Positions 39,595-45,220 of a DNA stretch of 64,000 nt are shown piece by piece. A program made the position numbers and the translations under genes. The notes beneath the pieces are model-generated. The model was not told where the DNA came from. It was given only the letters and a program-made list of their open reading frames with translations, and did no database searches. Where the stretch lies: positions 444 to 64,443 of the forward strand of contig DDVW01000056.1 of the NCBI GenBank assembly GCA_002345545.1. The letters are read 5' to 3'. This DNA comes from Stenotrophomonas sp. UBA2302 (lineage in GTDB: Bacteria; Pseudomonadota; Gammaproteobacteria; Xanthomonadales; Xanthomonadaceae). Position 1 is the stretch's first letter. Each line of letters opens with the position of its first letter.

Positions 39595-40080
39595 ATGGCC
39601 GACGTCCACATCCGTCCCGCAACGGCCGAGGATGCGGGGCTGATCCTGCATTTCATCCGCGAACTGGCGATCTACGAGAAGGCCGAATCCTCGGTGCAGA
39701 CCGATGAGGCCGGCATCCGTGCCAGCCTGTTCGGTGCCGATGCCAAGGCGCAGGCGCTGGTGTGCGAACGCGACGGGCAGGCGATCGGCTACGCGGTGTA
39801 CTTCTACAACTACTCCACGTGGCTGGGCCGCAACGGCATCTATCTGGAAGACCTGTACATCAGCCCCGAGCAGCGCGGCAGCGGTGCCGGCAAGGCGCTG
39901 CTGCAGCACATCGCCAGGCTGGCGGTGGCGCAGGGCTGCGGGCGATTCGAGTGGTCGGTGCTGGACTGGAATACGCCGGCCATCGAGTTCTACAAGGCGG
40001 CCGGCGCCGTGGCGCAGGACGAGTGGACGGTGTACCGGCTGCAGGGCGATGCTCTGCGCAAGTTTGCTGAAGGCCGCTAG
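39595..40080 (+). CDS. GNAT family N-acetyltransferase
   Basis: 161 residues with the full GNAT fold: VHIRPATAEDAGLILHFIRELAIYEK start, motif A LEDLYISPEQRGSGAGKALL (acetyl-CoA pyrophosphate loop QRGSGAG) and FEWSVLDWNTPAIEFYKAAGA. It most resembles diamine acetyltransferase (SSAT-like) enzymes, where the C-terminal WNxxAIxFY motif is typical. It overlaps no neighbour and lies three bases after rpe. The substrate is not certain. Confidence 0.85.
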   Translation: MADVHIRPATAEDAGLILHFIRELAIYEKAESSVQTDEAGIRASLFGADAKAQALVCERDGQAIGYAVYFYNYSTWLGRNGIYLEDLYISPEQRGSGAGKALLQHIARLAVAQGCGRFEWSVLDWNTPAIEFYKAAGAVAQDEWTVYRLQGDALRKFAEGR

Positions 40081-40191
40081 CGTAGTGCCGAGCCATGCCC
40101 GGCAGAGGCGTTTGTGGTGCCACGATTTCGCAGGAGCGGTGTAAGCCGCGAAGCTCATATCAATGAGGCTGCGGCACATGCGCAAGAAGAC

Positions 40192-40219
40192 AAAAAAGCC
40201 GCAGTGTCGCCACTGCGGC
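40192..40219 (-). terminator. Intrinsic terminator on the minus strand without an obvious gene
   Basis: A perfect nine-base-pair stem (GCCGCAGTG 40198-40206 and CACTGCGGC 40211-40219) with loop TCGC. On the minus strand it ends in six T (A-run 40192-40197). No minus-strand protein gene lies upstream of it, so it ends an untranslated transcript. It does not suit the plus-strand GNAT gene, which has no T-run after the stem. Confidence 0.8.
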
Positions 40220-40330
40220 CGGGGAATCCATCGGAGGCTGATCCTGCCTCCATCCATCGTCCCTGCTATGGACTTCCATTCTCCGGATCGACAATGACAG
40301 CGGCGTGACAATCACCGGTATGCGCTGACG
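40192..40330 (-). ncRNA. Candidate small RNA, GGA-rich, opposite the trpE upstream region
   Basis: On the minus strand the terminator is preceded by a hairpin GGAGGC / GCCTCC (40246-40251 with 40233-40238) whose seven-base loop is AGGATCA. Read from about 40330 the strand carries GGA motifs in CCGGAGAATGGAAG, ATGGATGGAGG, AGGATC and GATGGATTCC: six within about 80 bases, one of them in a hairpin loop. GGA in loops is the binding site of CsrA/RsmA, and RNAs with several of them titrate that protein. The 5' end is not defined; I found no convincing promoter. Candidate only. Confidence 0.4.
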
Positions 40331-40522
40331 CAACGGGCCGCGTTATCTGCTTGAGAAGGACATGAGGCCGGTACTCCGGTTCCTCACTCTCAAGGGCAGG
40401 CCGGTTGTATGCGCAGGTGCCTGCCGGAACCCCGTTGTTTGATGGCTGGATCGTTGCCACTGCAAGCATTTGCGCCTGTTGCAGATGCACACCGCGGCAC
40501 GATCTTGCGGTAGAGTTGCGCG

Positions 40523-40672
40523 GTGCCCATTCTGACGACCAAGCGTTACCTTTCTTCCGCTCGCCGCTGGTGGCGATGGTGGCCCGTTGCCGTCGTCCGT
40601 ACCGCCACCGTCGATTCCCGGAAGGAAAGCCGTCTTGATCACGCAAGAGCAGTTCCAGCAGCTGGCCACTGA
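40523..40672 (+). CDS. trpL: Putative trp leader peptide (four Trp codons in five)
   Basis: A 49-codon frame starting with GTG at 40523 and ending with TGA at 40670-40672, 38 bases inside trpE in another frame. Codons 16, 17, 19 and 20 are TGG (positions 40568-40582) around one Arg codon. Tryptophan is rare and this cluster lies just ahead of trpE, so the frame looks like a regulatory leader peptide. Only a weak GAG lies upstream of the GTG, and the first in-frame stop upstream is at 40511, so no earlier start exists. The peptide itself need not have a function. Confidence 0.6.
   Translation: MPILTTKRYLSSARRWWRWWPVAVVRTATVDSRKESRLDHARAVPAAGH
40549..40637 (+). promoter_or_regulatory. Candidate translational attenuator of trpE
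   Basis: The trpE ribosome site (CGGAAGGAAAG, 40619-40629) can pair with CTTTCTTCCG at 40550-40559: ten base pairs with one bulged G. Inside, GGTGGCG (40569-40575, within the Trp codons) pairs with CGCCACC (40603-40609). The hairpin would hide the trpE start. A ribosome stalled on the Trp codons would cover both left arms and free the ribosome site when tryptophan is scarce. No T-run terminator lies between leader and trpE, so regulation would be of translation rather than of transcription termination. Confidence 0.5.
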
Positions 40673-42125
40673 AGGCCATAGCGCACCCCCGCACAATTTC
40701 GTCCCCGTCGTCCGTGAAGTGCTGTCCGACCTGGACACGCCGCTTTCGGTCTACCTGAAGCTCGCCGACGGTCCGTATACCTATCTGTTCGAATCGGTCG
40801 AGGGCGGTGAGCGCTTCGGTCGTTATTCGATCATCGGCATGCCCGCACGCCGCATCTACAGCTTCCGCGGCCATACGCTGGAAGTGAGCGAACTGGGCGA
40901 AGTGGTGGAGCGCCGCGAGGTTGCCGATCCGCTGGCCGAAGTGGAAGTGCTGCGCAAGCAGTATTCGGTGCCGCAGCTGGACGGCCTGCCGGGTTTCACC
41001 GGCGGCCTGGTCGGCTGGTTCGGCTTCGAGTGCATCCAGTACATCGAACCGCATCTGGGTGCGGGCGACAAGCCTGATGAACTCGGTACGCCGGACATCC
41101 TGCTGATGCTGTCCGAAGAGCTGGCGGTGTTCGACAACCTCAAGGGTCGCCTGTACCTGATCGTGCACGCCGACCCGTCACAGCCGCAGGCCTGGGCGCG
41201 GGCAAACCGTCGTCTTGATGAGCTGGCCCATCGCCTGCGCCAGGGCGGTGCCGGTTACCCGCAGCCGCAGGTGTCCGATGCCATCGACGAGCAGGATTTC
41301 CAGTCCTCCTTCACCCGCGAGGAATATCACGCGGTGGTGCGCAAGGCCCAGGAATACGTGCTTGCCGGCGACATCTTCCAGGTGGTGCCGAGCCAGCGCT
41401 TGCGCGTGCCGTTCCGCGCGCGGCCGATCGACGTCTACCGCGCGCTGCGTGCGTTGAATCCGTCGCCATACATGTATTTCATCGACGTGGGTGGCACTCA
41501 GGTGGTGGGTTCGTCGCCGGAGATCCTCGCGCGGCTGCGCGATGGCGTGGTCACTGTGCGGCCGATCGCCGGTACCCGCCCACGCGGCGCCACGCCGGAG
41601 CTGGACAAGGCGTTGGAAGCCGAGCTGCTGGCCGATCCGAAGGAACGTGCCGAGCACGTGATGCTGATCGATCTGGGCCGCAACGACGTCGGCCGCATTG
41701 CCGAGCCGGGCACCGTGCAGGTGGGCGAGCAGTTCGTGATCGAACGCTACAGCCACGTCATGCATATCGTCAGCGAAGTGACCGGCACGCTGAAGGCGGG
41801 CCTGAGCTACAGCGACGTGCTGCGGGCGACCTTTCCGGCCGGCACGGTCAGCGGTTCACCGAAGATCCGTGCATTGGAAATCATCCGCGAGCTGGAGCCG
41901 GTCAAGCGCAACGTGTACTCCGGTGCGGTCGGCTACATCGGCTGGCACGGCGATGCCGATACCGCCATCGCCATCCGCACCGCGGTGATCCAGGACGGCC
42001 ACCTGTACGTGCAGGCCGGCGGCGGCGTGGTCCATGACTCCGATCCGGACGCCGAGTGGCAGGAAACCATGAACAAGGGCCGCGCGCTGTTCCGCGCGGT
42101 GGCGCAGGCGGCGAAGGGGCTTTGA
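40635..42125 (+). CDS. trpE: Anthranilate synthase component I
   Basis: 496 residues. It makes anthranilate from chorismate with ammonia from TrpG. The feedback-site segment [19 protein letters not shown] (LFES is the Trp-binding element) is near residue 50. Catalytic-domain blocks: [62 protein letters not shown] and [14 protein letters not shown]. The start is a TTG at 40635 with GGAAGGAAAG upstream; an ATG giving the conserved N-terminus does not exist. TTG may lower expression and depend on the leader hairpin. First gene of the trpEGDC cluster; trpB, trpA and trpF are elsewhere. Confidence 0.95.
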
Positions 42126-42162: not shown

Positions 42163-42747
42163 ATGCTGTTGATGATCGACAACTACGACAGCTTCACCTT
42201 CAACCTTGTGCAATACCTGCAGATGCTGGGTGCCGAGGTGAAGGTGGTGCGCAATGACGCGATCAGCGTCGAGCAGATCGCCGCGTTGCAACCCTCGCAC
42301 ATCGTGGTTTCTCCCGGACCGAAGACGCCCAACGAAGCCGGTGTATCGCTGGAGGTGATCCGCCAGTTGGGGCCGAGCATTCCCCTGTTCGGCGTGTGTC
42401 TGGGCCACCAGAGCATCGGCCAGGTGTATGGCGGGAACGTGATCCGCGCCGGCAACATCATGCACGGCAAGACTTCGGCCATCCGGCATGAAGGCAAGGG
42501 CGTGTTCGCCGGTCTGCCGGACGGCTATGAGGCCACCCGTTACCACTCGCTGGTGGTGGACAAGGACAGCTTGCCGGCCGAACTGGAGATCACCGCCTGG
42601 ACCGAGAATCCGGATGGTTCGATGGAGGAGATCATGGGCCTGCGGCACCGTGAATATCCGGTGGAAGGCGTGCAGTTCCATCCCGAGTCGATCCTCACCC
42701 AGCACGGTCACGCATTGTTGAAGAACTTCCTGGATCGTACGTGCTGA
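42163..42747 (+). CDS. trpG: Anthranilate synthase component II (glutamine amidotransferase)
   Basis: 194 residues. It releases ammonia from glutamine for TrpE. The start [19 protein letters not shown] is typical. The catalytic Cys is in [12 protein letters not shown] and the His/Glu in [10 protein letters not shown]. Starts 37 bases after trpE with AGGCAGG upstream. Not fused to TrpD. Confidence 0.96.
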
Positions 42748-42811: not shown

Positions 42812-43324
42812 GTGAGTGATGCGGACCTGCGGCTGTTCGTGGTGATGCTCGGTGGCCGTCATGCGCGTGCCAATACCGAAGTGCATGACGTGGTGTTCGC
42901 GGTCGCGCCGGAGATCGGGCAGACCTACGCGCAGCTGCGCCAGCAATGGTTCGGCGAGCCGGGCGGGTTGCACCTGGATTCGTGGATGACGGTCGACGGC
43001 GTCGAGGACTGGCAGGTACGCCTGTCGCAGGATGCGCCCGCTGCCGATGCGCCGACGCTGTTCTTCGTCAACCTCGGTGGTTACGTGGACGGCGAGTTCG
43101 GTGAAGCGCACCGCTATCTGCTGGTGATCGCCGCCGACGCGGTGGAAGCCAAACACAAGGCACTGGCGCAGGCCGAAGCGCAGTGGGTCAAGCCGCACCG
43201 TGACGCCTTGCTGGACGTGGACAGCTGCCTGCCTGTCGGCCCGATCGGTGGCCTGCATGTGCAGCTGATCCCCGGCCCCCACACCGGCATCCGCTGCCAC
43301 AGCGACTACATCGTTATTTCCTGA
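42812..43324 (+). CDS. DUF1543 protein within the trp cluster
   Basis: 170 residues from GTG at 42812 (an upstream TTG at 42782 is possible). [43 protein letters not shown] is the DUF1543 signature, repeated in weaker form in the second half with [22 protein letters not shown]. No catalytic motif is evident and the function is unknown. It lies between trpG and trpD in the same direction, with 64 and 13 bases of spacing, so it is co-transcribed with tryptophan synthesis genes; a role there is unproven. Confidence 0.82.
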
Positions 43325-43337
43325 CACTGGAGTTTTC

Positions 43338-44375
43338 ATGACCATCACCGCGCAGGAAGCCCTGCAACGCACCATCGAGCATCGGGAAATCTTCTTCGAC
43401 GAAATGGTCGAGCTGATGCGGCAGATCATGCGCGGGGAAATCTCGCCGACCATGACCGCGGCGATCCTCACCGGCCTGCGCGTCAAGAAGGAAACCGTGG
43501 GCGAGATCGCCGGCGCGGCCACGGTGATGCGCGAGTTCGCGTTGCCGGTACAGGTGTCCGACAAGACCCATCTGGTCGATATCGTCGGGACCGGTGGCGA
43601 TGGCTCGCATACCTTCAACATCTCTACCTGCTCGATGTTCGTGGTGGCCGCGGCCGGCGCCAAGGTGGCCAAGCATGGCAACCGCAGCGTGTCGTCCAAA
43701 TCCGGCAGCGCCGATGCGGTGGAGGCGCTGGGGGCGGTGATCGAGCTCACCCCGGAGCAGGTGGCTGTTGCGATCGAGCAGACCGGCATCGGCTTCATGT
43801 TCGCGCCGATGCACCACCCGGCGATGAAGGTCGTGGCGCCGGTACGCCGGGAGATGGGCGTGCGCACCATTTTCAACATCCTCGGTCCGCTGACCAACCC
43901 GGTCGGTGCCACCAATATCCTGATGGGCGTGTTCCATCCGGATCTGGTCGGCATCCAGGCGCGTGTGCTCGGCGAGCTGGGCGCAGAACGGGCGCTGGTG
44001 GTGTGGGGTCGCGACAACATGGACGAGATCTCGCTGGGCGCCGGCACGCTGGTTGGCGAGCTGCGTGACGGCAAGGTGCGCGAGTATGAAATCCATCCGG
44101 AAGACTTCGGCATCGCCATGTCCGCCAGCCGCAATCTCAAGGTCGCCAATCCGGAAGAGTCCATCGCCATGCTGCGTGGCGTGCTGGACAACGTGCCCGG
44201 CCCGGCCAACGACATCGTCGCGCTCAATGCCGGCGCCGCGCTGTATGTGGCCGGCGTGGCCGACAGCATCGCCGATGGCCTGGCGCGCGCACGCGCGGTG
44301 ATCGCCGATGGCAGTGCCCGTGCGCGCATGCAGCAGTACGTCGCCGCCAGCCGTATGCTGGCCGGCAAGTCCTGA
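43338..44375 (+). CDS. trpD: Anthranilate phosphoribosyltransferase
   Basis: 345 residues. It adds phosphoribose from PRPP to anthranilate. Motifs: [21 protein letters not shown] (the GTGGD PRPP loop), [21 protein letters not shown] and [12 protein letters not shown]. The GTGGDG loop and the SSKSGSAD helix give confidence. ATG at 43338 with GGAG upstream. trpC follows after about 50 bases. Confidence 0.96.
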
Positions 44376-44425: not shown

Positions 44426-45220
44426 ATGAGTGACATCCTCAACACCATCCTCGCCCGCAAATCGCAGGAGGTGGCCGAGCGCAGTGCCCGCATGCCGTTG
44501 GCCGAGTTGAAAGCGCGCGTGGCCGATGCGCCGCCGGTGCGCGGCTTTGCCAATGCGCTGCAGGCGGCCATCGCCAATGGCGACCCTGCGGTGATCGCCG
44601 AGATCAAGAAGGCCAGTCCGTCCAAGGGCGTGATCCGCGCCGAGTTCCATCCGGCCGACATCGCCGTGAGTTACGAGTTTGGCGGTGCCAGCTGCCTGTC
44701 GGTGCTGACCGACGTGGATTTCTTCCAGGGTGCCGACGCCTACCTGCAGCAGGCACGCGAGGCCTGCACGTTGCCGGTGCTGCGCAAGGACTTCGTGATC
44801 GATCCATACCAGGTGGTCGAGGCCCGCGTGCTGGGTGCCGATTGCGTCCTGCTGATCGTCGCCGCGCTGGATGATCGCCAGCTGGCCGAGCTGTCCGATC
44901 TGGCGATGCAGCTGGGCATGGACGTGCTGGTGGAAGTGCACGACATCGACGAGCTCGAGCGCGCGCTGCAGGTGCCGGTGCCGCTGGTGGGCATCAACAA
45001 CCGCAACCTGCGCACGTTCGAGGTTTCGCTGGACACCACCTTGTCGATGAAGGACGCGGTGCCGCGCGACCGCCTGCTGGTCACCGAAAGCGGCATCCTC
45101 GGTCCGGCCGACGTGACGACCATGCGCGACGCCGGCATCAATGCGTTCCTCGTCGGTGAGGCTTTCATGCGCGTGGACGAGCCGGGTGAGGGCCTGCGTC
45201 AGCTATTCTTTCCGGCATGA
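44426..45220 (+). CDS. trpC: Indole-3-glycerol-phosphate synthase
   Basis: 264 residues, TIM barrel, monofunctional (no TrpF domain). It closes CdRP to indole-3-glycerol phosphate. Motifs: [25 protein letters not shown] (catalytic Glu and Lys), [29 protein letters not shown] and [13 protein letters not shown]. The final codon is TGA at 45218-45220. A group II intron starts at the next base. In the uninterrupted arrangement, this stop overlapped the ATG of the phosphatase gene (ATGA). Confidence 0.96.

Follow-up and report, generated by a model that had tools for sequence, protein, structure and literature searches.

What controls the first gene of the tryptophan operon in Stenotrophomonas sp. 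UBA2302, and does the short reading frame in front of it act on transcription or on translation? The window, i.e., the whole 64,000-nucleotide stretch of DNA analyzed here, carries trpE behind a frame with four tryptophan codons. The locus is made up of the following features.

40511 to 40516, plus strand: TAGAGT, a candidate -10 box ending 6 nt upstream of the leader GTG, proposed from the TANNNT spacing in relatives
40523 to 40672, plus strand: leader ORF1, 49 codons by frame reading, with a GTG start and a TGA stop (40670 to 40672) inside trpE
40550 to 40559, plus strand: anti-Shine-Dalgarno stretch CTTTCTTCCG, proposed from the fold and from co-variation with the Shine-Dalgarno (SD) region
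40568 to 40582, plus strand: Trp-Trp-Arg-Trp-Trp codons TGGTGGCGATGGTGG, the presumed stall site, matching TGGCGATGG of 110/150 loci
40576 to 40578, plus strand: AUG made by the CGA codon (CGA in 110/111 hits), which would open ORF2 (40576 to 40638)
40592 to 40610, plus strand: downstream arm, the partner of the Trp codons in the MFE fold (40603 to 40610 and 40592 to 40600)
40619 to 40629, plus strand: SD region of trpE, CGGAAGGAAAG, sequestered in the predicted fold
40635 to 42122, plus strand: trpE, anthranilate synthase component I, TTG start (Pfam Chorismate_bind and Anth_synt_I_N)
40636 to 40638, plus strand: TGA stop of ORF2, overlapping the trpE start TTG 40635 in the window sequence
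42163 to 42744, plus strand: trpG, downstream of trpE on the same strand
42824 to 43321, plus strand: DUF1543 ORF between trpG and trpD, presumed part of the trp operon from its strand and order
43338 to 44372, plus strand: trpD, 3' of the DUF1543 ORF
44426 to 45217, plus strand: trpC, 3' of trpD

Leader ORF1 opens with the GTG at 40523 and has TGG at codons 16, 17, 19, and 20 (spanning 40568-40582), as first described. It reads across the trpE ribosome site and TTG 40635 and terminates within trpE in a different frame. The genes trpE, trpG, the DUF1543 ORF, trpD, and trpC likely form one operon under the Trp leader. Upstream of trpE, at about 40258-40292 of the window, is a stretch of the ATGGnnTTCnATTCTCC or ATGGACTCCCATTCTCC type. 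Such stretches are also found in L130, L146, L151, L155, L162, and L176, and these include leader-less loci.

The proposed structure is partly recovered from the window sequence itself. CTTTCTTCCG is complementary to CGGAAGGAAAG with one bulge, as claimed for 40550-40559 and the ribosome site of trpE at 40619-40629. The MFE fold from 40523 joins 40569-40575 to 40603-40609, the partner originally assigned to the Trp codons. A further claim, that the hairpin hides the TTG, holds in the fold from 40523, where 40635-40637 pairs with 40540-40542, but not in the fold from 40510, where the TTG is in a separate small hairpin. Masking of the start codon is therefore dependent on the assumed 5' end. The total folding energy of 40510-40650 is no better than that of shuffled sequences (z 0.45; 133/200 shuffles equally good), so the single sequence proves little. 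An Rfam scan of 40000-41000 returned one match, far below the cut-off and on the opposite strand, and no known leader family was matched. The comparative evidence does more than the single sequence. It is composed of the motif in 110/150 loci, the SD:anti-SD co-variation, and the folding of the family (mean z -2.07, 95 sequences). The Trp-codon hairpin has a mean folding z of -1.35 (95 sequences), and its motif is invariant.

The comparative set is made up of 150 trpE upstream regions, i.e., the window and 149 Xanthomonadaceae loci. Of 185 genomes in which trpE was found, 148 are represented, plus one from a separate search; G147 is omitted though it has a match. TGGCGATGG is present in the leader frame in 110/150 loci, 15-140 nt upstream of the start of the TrpE match, and conservation of the Trp codons in relatives, named at the outset as a check, is thereby borne out. 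In all 110 loci, an ATG or GTG in frame, preceded by a box, lies 10-20 codons ahead of TGGCGATGG. Leaders with 2, 3, or 4 Trp codons number 21, 58, and 31, respectively. The leader stop codon is inside trpE in 104 loci and 38-55 nt before the trpE start in the other 6. Loci in which the leader was read include those of Stenotrophomonas mori, S. koreensis, Xanthomonas sp. GPE 39, Pseudoxanthomonas spadix, and Lysobacter lacus.

The strict motif is missing from 40/150 loci. Sorted by eye, these are 16 degenerate loci and 24 without a leader; no leader was seen by eye in the loci of Rhodanobacter, Dyella, Oleiagrimonas, and Frateuria. Some degenerate loci have a single Trp codon, and CGATGG is kept in 11/16, so Trp does not account for all of the conservation. 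Seven leader-less loci (L181, L190, L192, L204, L214, L222, and L224) have a CATACT box close before the trpE start. From their sequence, they look like loci that lack the leader, with trpE driven by a close promoter. Two loci from Gammaproteobacteria outside the family (L014 and L016) contain, in front of trpE, short R/W-rich ORFs that include CGATGG, and the motif may thus predate the family.

A sequence-only model matched 122/198 family genomes at E 1e-7 or better; these 122 are model matches, with the position relative to trpE checked for only part of the first matches. An order-wide search of 151 genomes gave 20 genomes with a match under 1e-9. Eighteen coincide with known trpE starts, the match in G310 precedes trpE, and the remaining one is in G014. 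One further strong match is the trpG copy in G056. Nine of the matched loci were read; eight are weak matches, and by eye no leader is present there.

Pairing between the leader and the trpE ribosome site is the second line of evidence. RNAalifold on a 102-row family alignment gave no anti-SD stem; five pairs were predicted elsewhere, none of them compensatory. Counts in fixed-register columns are mixed, with 17-46 of 49 rows per pair in one group. RNAalifold misses the stem because the pairing register slides between groups, and one fixed register does not suit them all. Pairing was therefore scored per sequence with swapped partners: the score is the best uninterrupted helix between the part of the leader ahead of the Trp codons and the 21 nt that precede the start of trpE, and partners were exchanged between genomes. 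The SD and start were not matched by pattern in 4/110 loci, and the start of the TrpE match was substituted. Own partners score 17.57, versus 15.07 for permuted partners (sd 0.24, z 10.5, 0/5,000 permutations, 110 sequences). Relatedness inflates this z, and the comparison was thus repeated on representatives. The own-pairing z is 8.76 for 63 sequences under 85% identity, 7.05 for 33 under 75% (0/20,000 permutations), 4.62 for 19 under 70% (1/20,000), and 2.96 for 7 under 65% (71/20,000).

Examples of anti-SD/SD pairs are GCATTTCC/GGAAATGC, GATTCCTG/CAGGAATC, GCATTCCTTC/GAAGGAATGC, GGCGTCTTTCG/TGAAGGACGCC, GCTTCCTTC/GAAGGAAGC, and CGTCTTTCGAG/TTCGAAGGACG. Five loci without a GGA core were excluded from the count of helices over the SD core. 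Among the other 105, helices of at least 7 bp that include the SD GGA are observed in 67, against 37.3 expected (maximum 50). A helix of at least 6 bp covers the GGA in 90/105 loci; the other 15 have less than 6 bp over the SD core, and 2 of them have none. In some loci, the best helix from the swap test is not over the SD. The pairing of 40550-40559 with 40619-40629, whose conservation had been put forward as a check, is thus retained in relatives through compensating changes while its position slides.

The effect of a halted ribosome was modelled on 105 distinct leaders by constrained folding, in which bases beneath a ribosome footprint, shifted one codon at a time, may not pair. The median unpaired probability of the SD is 0.046 in the free RNA and 0.358 when the TGG of TGGCGATGG occupies the A site. 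It falls to 0.242 and 0.151 two and three codons later, and to 0.05 five codons later. With the footprint advanced by two and three codons, to the later Trp codons, the mean modelled exposure is 0.24 and 0.19, versus 0.36. Three footprint sizes keep the same order of exposure (52 sequences, every second of the 105). From this profile, the Trp codons close the run of codons at which a halted ribosome would free the SD. The claim that stalling at the Trp codons opens the hairpin is thus supported in the model, where the SD is exposed there and not five codons later. Two observations count against translational attenuation by this hairpin: the modelled exposure is lower at the later Trp codons, and the leader crosses the SD in 104/110 loci, where translating leader ribosomes would melt the stem in passing.

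The leader start is accompanied by a promoter-like element. A TANNNT box lies 6-10 nt before the leader start in 110/110 loci (6 or 7 nt in 101 and 8-10 nt in 9), under a start rule that selects an in-frame start already having a box. With a stricter box and all frames tested, the start shares the frame of the Trp codons in 109/110 (one also has another frame), and one locus is without such a start. The consensus is TANAGT, with a G two bases upstream in 106/110; no -35 consensus was seen upstream of the box. A -10 box at such a distance sets the transcript start on or beside the start codon. Transcription would therefore begin at or beside the leader start codon, and by this spacing the leader mRNA is probably leaderless.

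In some genomes, the leader occurs twice. The sequence-only model gives two matches at E 1e-7 or better in 21/198 genomes, and trpG follows the second copy in 20/21; for L263, the 900 bases end before any trpG. Twenty of the second copies keep the box, the in-frame start, and TGGCGATGGTGG; the copy in L242 has RWWW instead of WRWW. In the 20 copies in front of trpG, a set that includes L242 and excludes L263, the start codon that the second leader would control opens a connecting ORF of 44-136 codons, counted to trpG. The connecting ORF is open up to trpG in 19/20, whereas the other two frames are open in 7 and 0 of 20 (Fisher p 5e-9, uncorrected for relatedness). Its sequence is without visible constraint by codon position (GC 0.73, 0.76, and 0.72). 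In 17/20, its TGA overlaps an internal Met codon of trpG, 4 or 5 codons past the presumed start. The other three differ: L259 is in frame with trpG, L260 ends just before it, and L268 ends further inside. An open connecting ORF favors translational control, since control of initiation needs such a link and transcriptional control would not. Own pairing of the second copies scores 15.8, versus 13.96 when swapped (20 copies, 0/5,000 permutations), and several of their best helices lie outside the SD.

In 12/20 loci (L252-L254, L256-L258, L261, L264-L267, and L269), GATAAT occurs between the second leader and trpG, often in GGGATAATCGCG-like sequence and 56-200 nt ahead of the DNYD codons of trpG. 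From its sequence, this may perhaps be a second promoter.

The arginine codon between the Trp codons is nearly invariant. The 110 loci were selected by TGGCGATGG, which makes a CGA count among them circular, and an open search for TGG-Arg-TGG was therefore run on the 150 loci. Arg is CGA in 110/111 hits, the exception being a CGC in leader-less L181, and CGA makes up only 1/270 Arg codons of early trpE. The Trp codons also stay in one frame relative to the trpE start, in 109/110 loci, although the AUG lies anywhere from 51 to 86 nt ahead of it. In this frame, leader ribosomes would neither run on into a fusion with trpE nor terminate at its start codon. ORF2 ends on the trpE start in 86/110, a count that may be 88, since the start is off by 6 nt in L083 and by 3 nt in L209. 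Beyond the original prediction, the analysis adds the probable leaderless start, the leader's overlap with trpE, its copy before trpG, and the invariant CGA.

ORF2 was also considered as a constrained peptide and rejected; the stretch from the Trp codons to the SD shows no codon-position bias, whichever frame is counted (29/35/28).

The CGA codon and the kept frame could be read to mean that ORF2 matters in its own right. The AUG from the CGA codon would start a short ORF whose stop lies on the trpE start and which supplies ribosomes to it, and the Trp codons in ORF1 would govern access to that AUG. The near-exclusive use of CGA against its rarity in early trpE, the kept frame, and the ends on the trpE start argue for this reading, which is compatible with translational attenuation. 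In the degenerate loci, an ORF2 with ATG ends on the trpE start in 7/16, and in six of these ORF1 stops early. However, ORF2 is truncated before trpE in 9/110, its stretch is without codon-position bias, and no SD is evident by eye ahead of the AUG. In 8/20 second copies, the start codon is followed by a base other than A, and ORF2 cannot stop there. Frame keeping is equally explained by ORF1 needing to avoid the trpE frame. A role for ORF2 is unlikely. The conserved CGA codon and CGATGG, kept as nucleotides even where Trp codons are lost, could instead point to a role as RNA only, i.e., a constitutive SD-masking hairpin or the target of an sRNA or protein. Against this are the promoter-like box and in-frame start ahead of the Trp codons in 109/110 loci, the 2, 3, or 4 Trp codons of individual leaders (21, 58, and 31 of 110), and the position of the checkable second copies before another gene of the same pathway. 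Conservation of the Trp codons merely as RNA sequence is very unlikely.

Control at the level of transcription is the other set of alternatives. Tandem Trp codons in a leader upstream of trpE are what an attenuator of the E. coli type has, and betaproteobacterial leaders with a hairpin and U-tract were seen by eye (L025, L045, L049, L060, and L062). A terminator overlooked by the scan is nevertheless barely credible. From the Trp codons to 60 nt into trpE, the longest T run is 2, 3, or 4 in 69, 39, and 2 of the 110 loci, and a terminator scan of window 40400-40720 gave 0 sites. The original prediction, which saw no U-tract terminator and set this leader apart from the E. coli type, agrees with these results: the leader ORF and adjacent Trp codons are present, and the intrinsic terminator is not. 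Without one, any transcriptional control would need Rho, and Rho sites tend to be C-rich and G-poor. The stretch from the Trp codons to the SD averages 50% C and 23% G (110 loci), and could be a Rho loading site gated by leader translation. The leader is, however, read through the whole C-rich stretch in 104/110 loci. Rho would therefore act during stalling, i.e., in starvation, which is the wrong sign. It also fails to explain the anti-SD:SD co-variation and the open connecting ORFs before trpG. Rho-dependent attenuation is thus quite unlikely.

Tryptophan-sensing translational attenuation by ribosome stalling in front of trpE is the reading that we hold to be highly probable, judging from sequence comparison. 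The original prediction had called it likely; its tests of conservation and pairing were run and did not refute it. RNA polymerase would start at or beside the leader start codon, and the leader would be translated as a leaderless mRNA, as the box spacing suggests. When no ribosome is stalled, the stretch 5' of the Trp codons is predicted to pair with the trpE SD, a pairing that co-variation supports, and translation of trpE would be low. When charged Trp-tRNA is short, a ribosome would halt at the Trp codons, cover the anti-SD stretch, and break both stems. The SD would then be freed and trpE translated, as constrained folding predicts for a ribosome presumed to stall there. When Trp is plentiful, the ribosome would move on and the anti-SD stretch would re-pair. 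The leader frame passes the trpE start out of frame, presumably so that leader ribosomes neither produce a fusion nor end on the start. At the second copy, the open connecting ORF could relay control to trpG by translational coupling. A broader version is speculative and rather improbable. In it, two overlapping frames share the Trp codons, with the CGA-derived AUG of ORF2 placed within the stall site of ORF1, and starvation would both free the SD and alter the frame that is read towards trpE. The whole would be a self-contained, copyable, leaderless switch, whose trpG copy relays control through a connecting ORF indifferent to sequence.

Several known systems share parts of this anatomy. The trpL of E. 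coli and Salmonella is a transcription attenuator, whose leader has adjacent Trp codons and whose sensor is a stalling ribosome. The short leader ORF, the adjacent Trp codons before trpE, and the stalling sensor would be common to both. Here, in contrast, a U-tract terminator was not found, masking of the SD is predicted, the leader overlaps trpE, and it is probably leaderless. Translational attenuation of the erm/cat type has an upstream uORF, an SD paired with the uORF region, and a stalled ribosome that frees the SD. Sequestration by the uORF region is predicted here too, backed by co-variation, and by constrained folding the stall codons are positioned to free the SD. Unlike erm/cat, the signal would be an amino acid and not an antibiotic or arrest peptide, biosynthesis would be controlled, and the leader is probably leaderless. 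In rtpLP of Bacillus subtilis, Trp codons in the leader determine whether the following gene begins to be translated, as they would here. In that system, it is the leader ribosome, close to its stop codon, that blocks the SD, and the stop lies just before the target SD. In Xanthomonadaceae, the anti-SD stretch would block the SD, the target is trpE, and the leader stop lies inside trpE or, in six loci, 38-55 nt before its start.

The uORF:SD pairing has been described in general terms (PMC13236596), and tRNA-dependent ribosome stalling regulates translation of anti-TRAP (AT) in B. subtilis rtpLP-rtpA (PMC11255114). Mycobacteria possess polycysteine leaderless uORFs (Canestrari et al. 2020, as cited in PMC9031893 and PMC13236596). 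These share with the present leader a run of codons for the sensed amino acid and would share a leaderless uORF and an effect on translation of downstream genes; they sense Cys and not Trp and belong to a different phylum. In Sinorhizobium meliloti, the trpE(G) leader RNA (trpL/rnTrpL) begins at the trpL ATG and is thus leaderless (PMC7298713). The passages on it describe transcription attenuation with a terminator and mention no SD masking. In Pseudomonas putida, both trpE and trpGDC are reported to be under attenuation (Olekhnovich and Gussin 2001, cited in PMC8297930). Within the same family, the met operon of Xanthomonas campestris is an amino-acid operon whose SAM-I riboswitch acts mainly on translation (PMC7270179). 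It differs in sensing SAM and uncharged initiator tRNA, and the relevant passages mention no leader peptide. By analogy, the mycobacterial leaderless Cys uORFs, B. subtilis rtpLP, and S. meliloti trpL would be the nearest known systems. No description of the leader was found in literature searched for Xanthomonas, Xanthomonadales, and Stenotrophomonas leaders or attenuation. According to PMC2965389, an earlier scan by Merino and Yanofsky had turned up translational attenuators, and the leader may already be in print in older comparative work (Merino and Yanofsky; Vitreschak 2004; Merino 2008).

Betaproteobacterial trpE leaders are of at least two kinds. Those of L025, L045, L049, L060, and L062 have several Trp codons (e.g., WRWW or WWRWW) followed by the hairpin and U-tract. 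Others (L029, L042, L047, L051, L055, L063, L065-L069, and similar loci) carry RGAWPWR or RGAWLWR, end roughly 90-150 nt before trpE, and show no clear U-tract by eye. Several of these have TACACT or TAAACT about 7 nt before the ATG, and by that sequence they are perhaps leaderless too. Since trpE leaders occur with and without the U-tract hairpin, one sensor may have taken different outputs. The leaders with hairpin and U-tract, which came from the same locus search, allow sensor and output to be compared between groups.

Proteobacterial leader peptides of amino acid biosynthesis are usually described as transcription attenuators (general knowledge; PMC7298713). The Xanthomonas family appears to use the same sensor, Trp codons and a stalling ribosome, with a different output, masking of the SD. 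The copy before trpG is a natural test of whether this control acts on translation.
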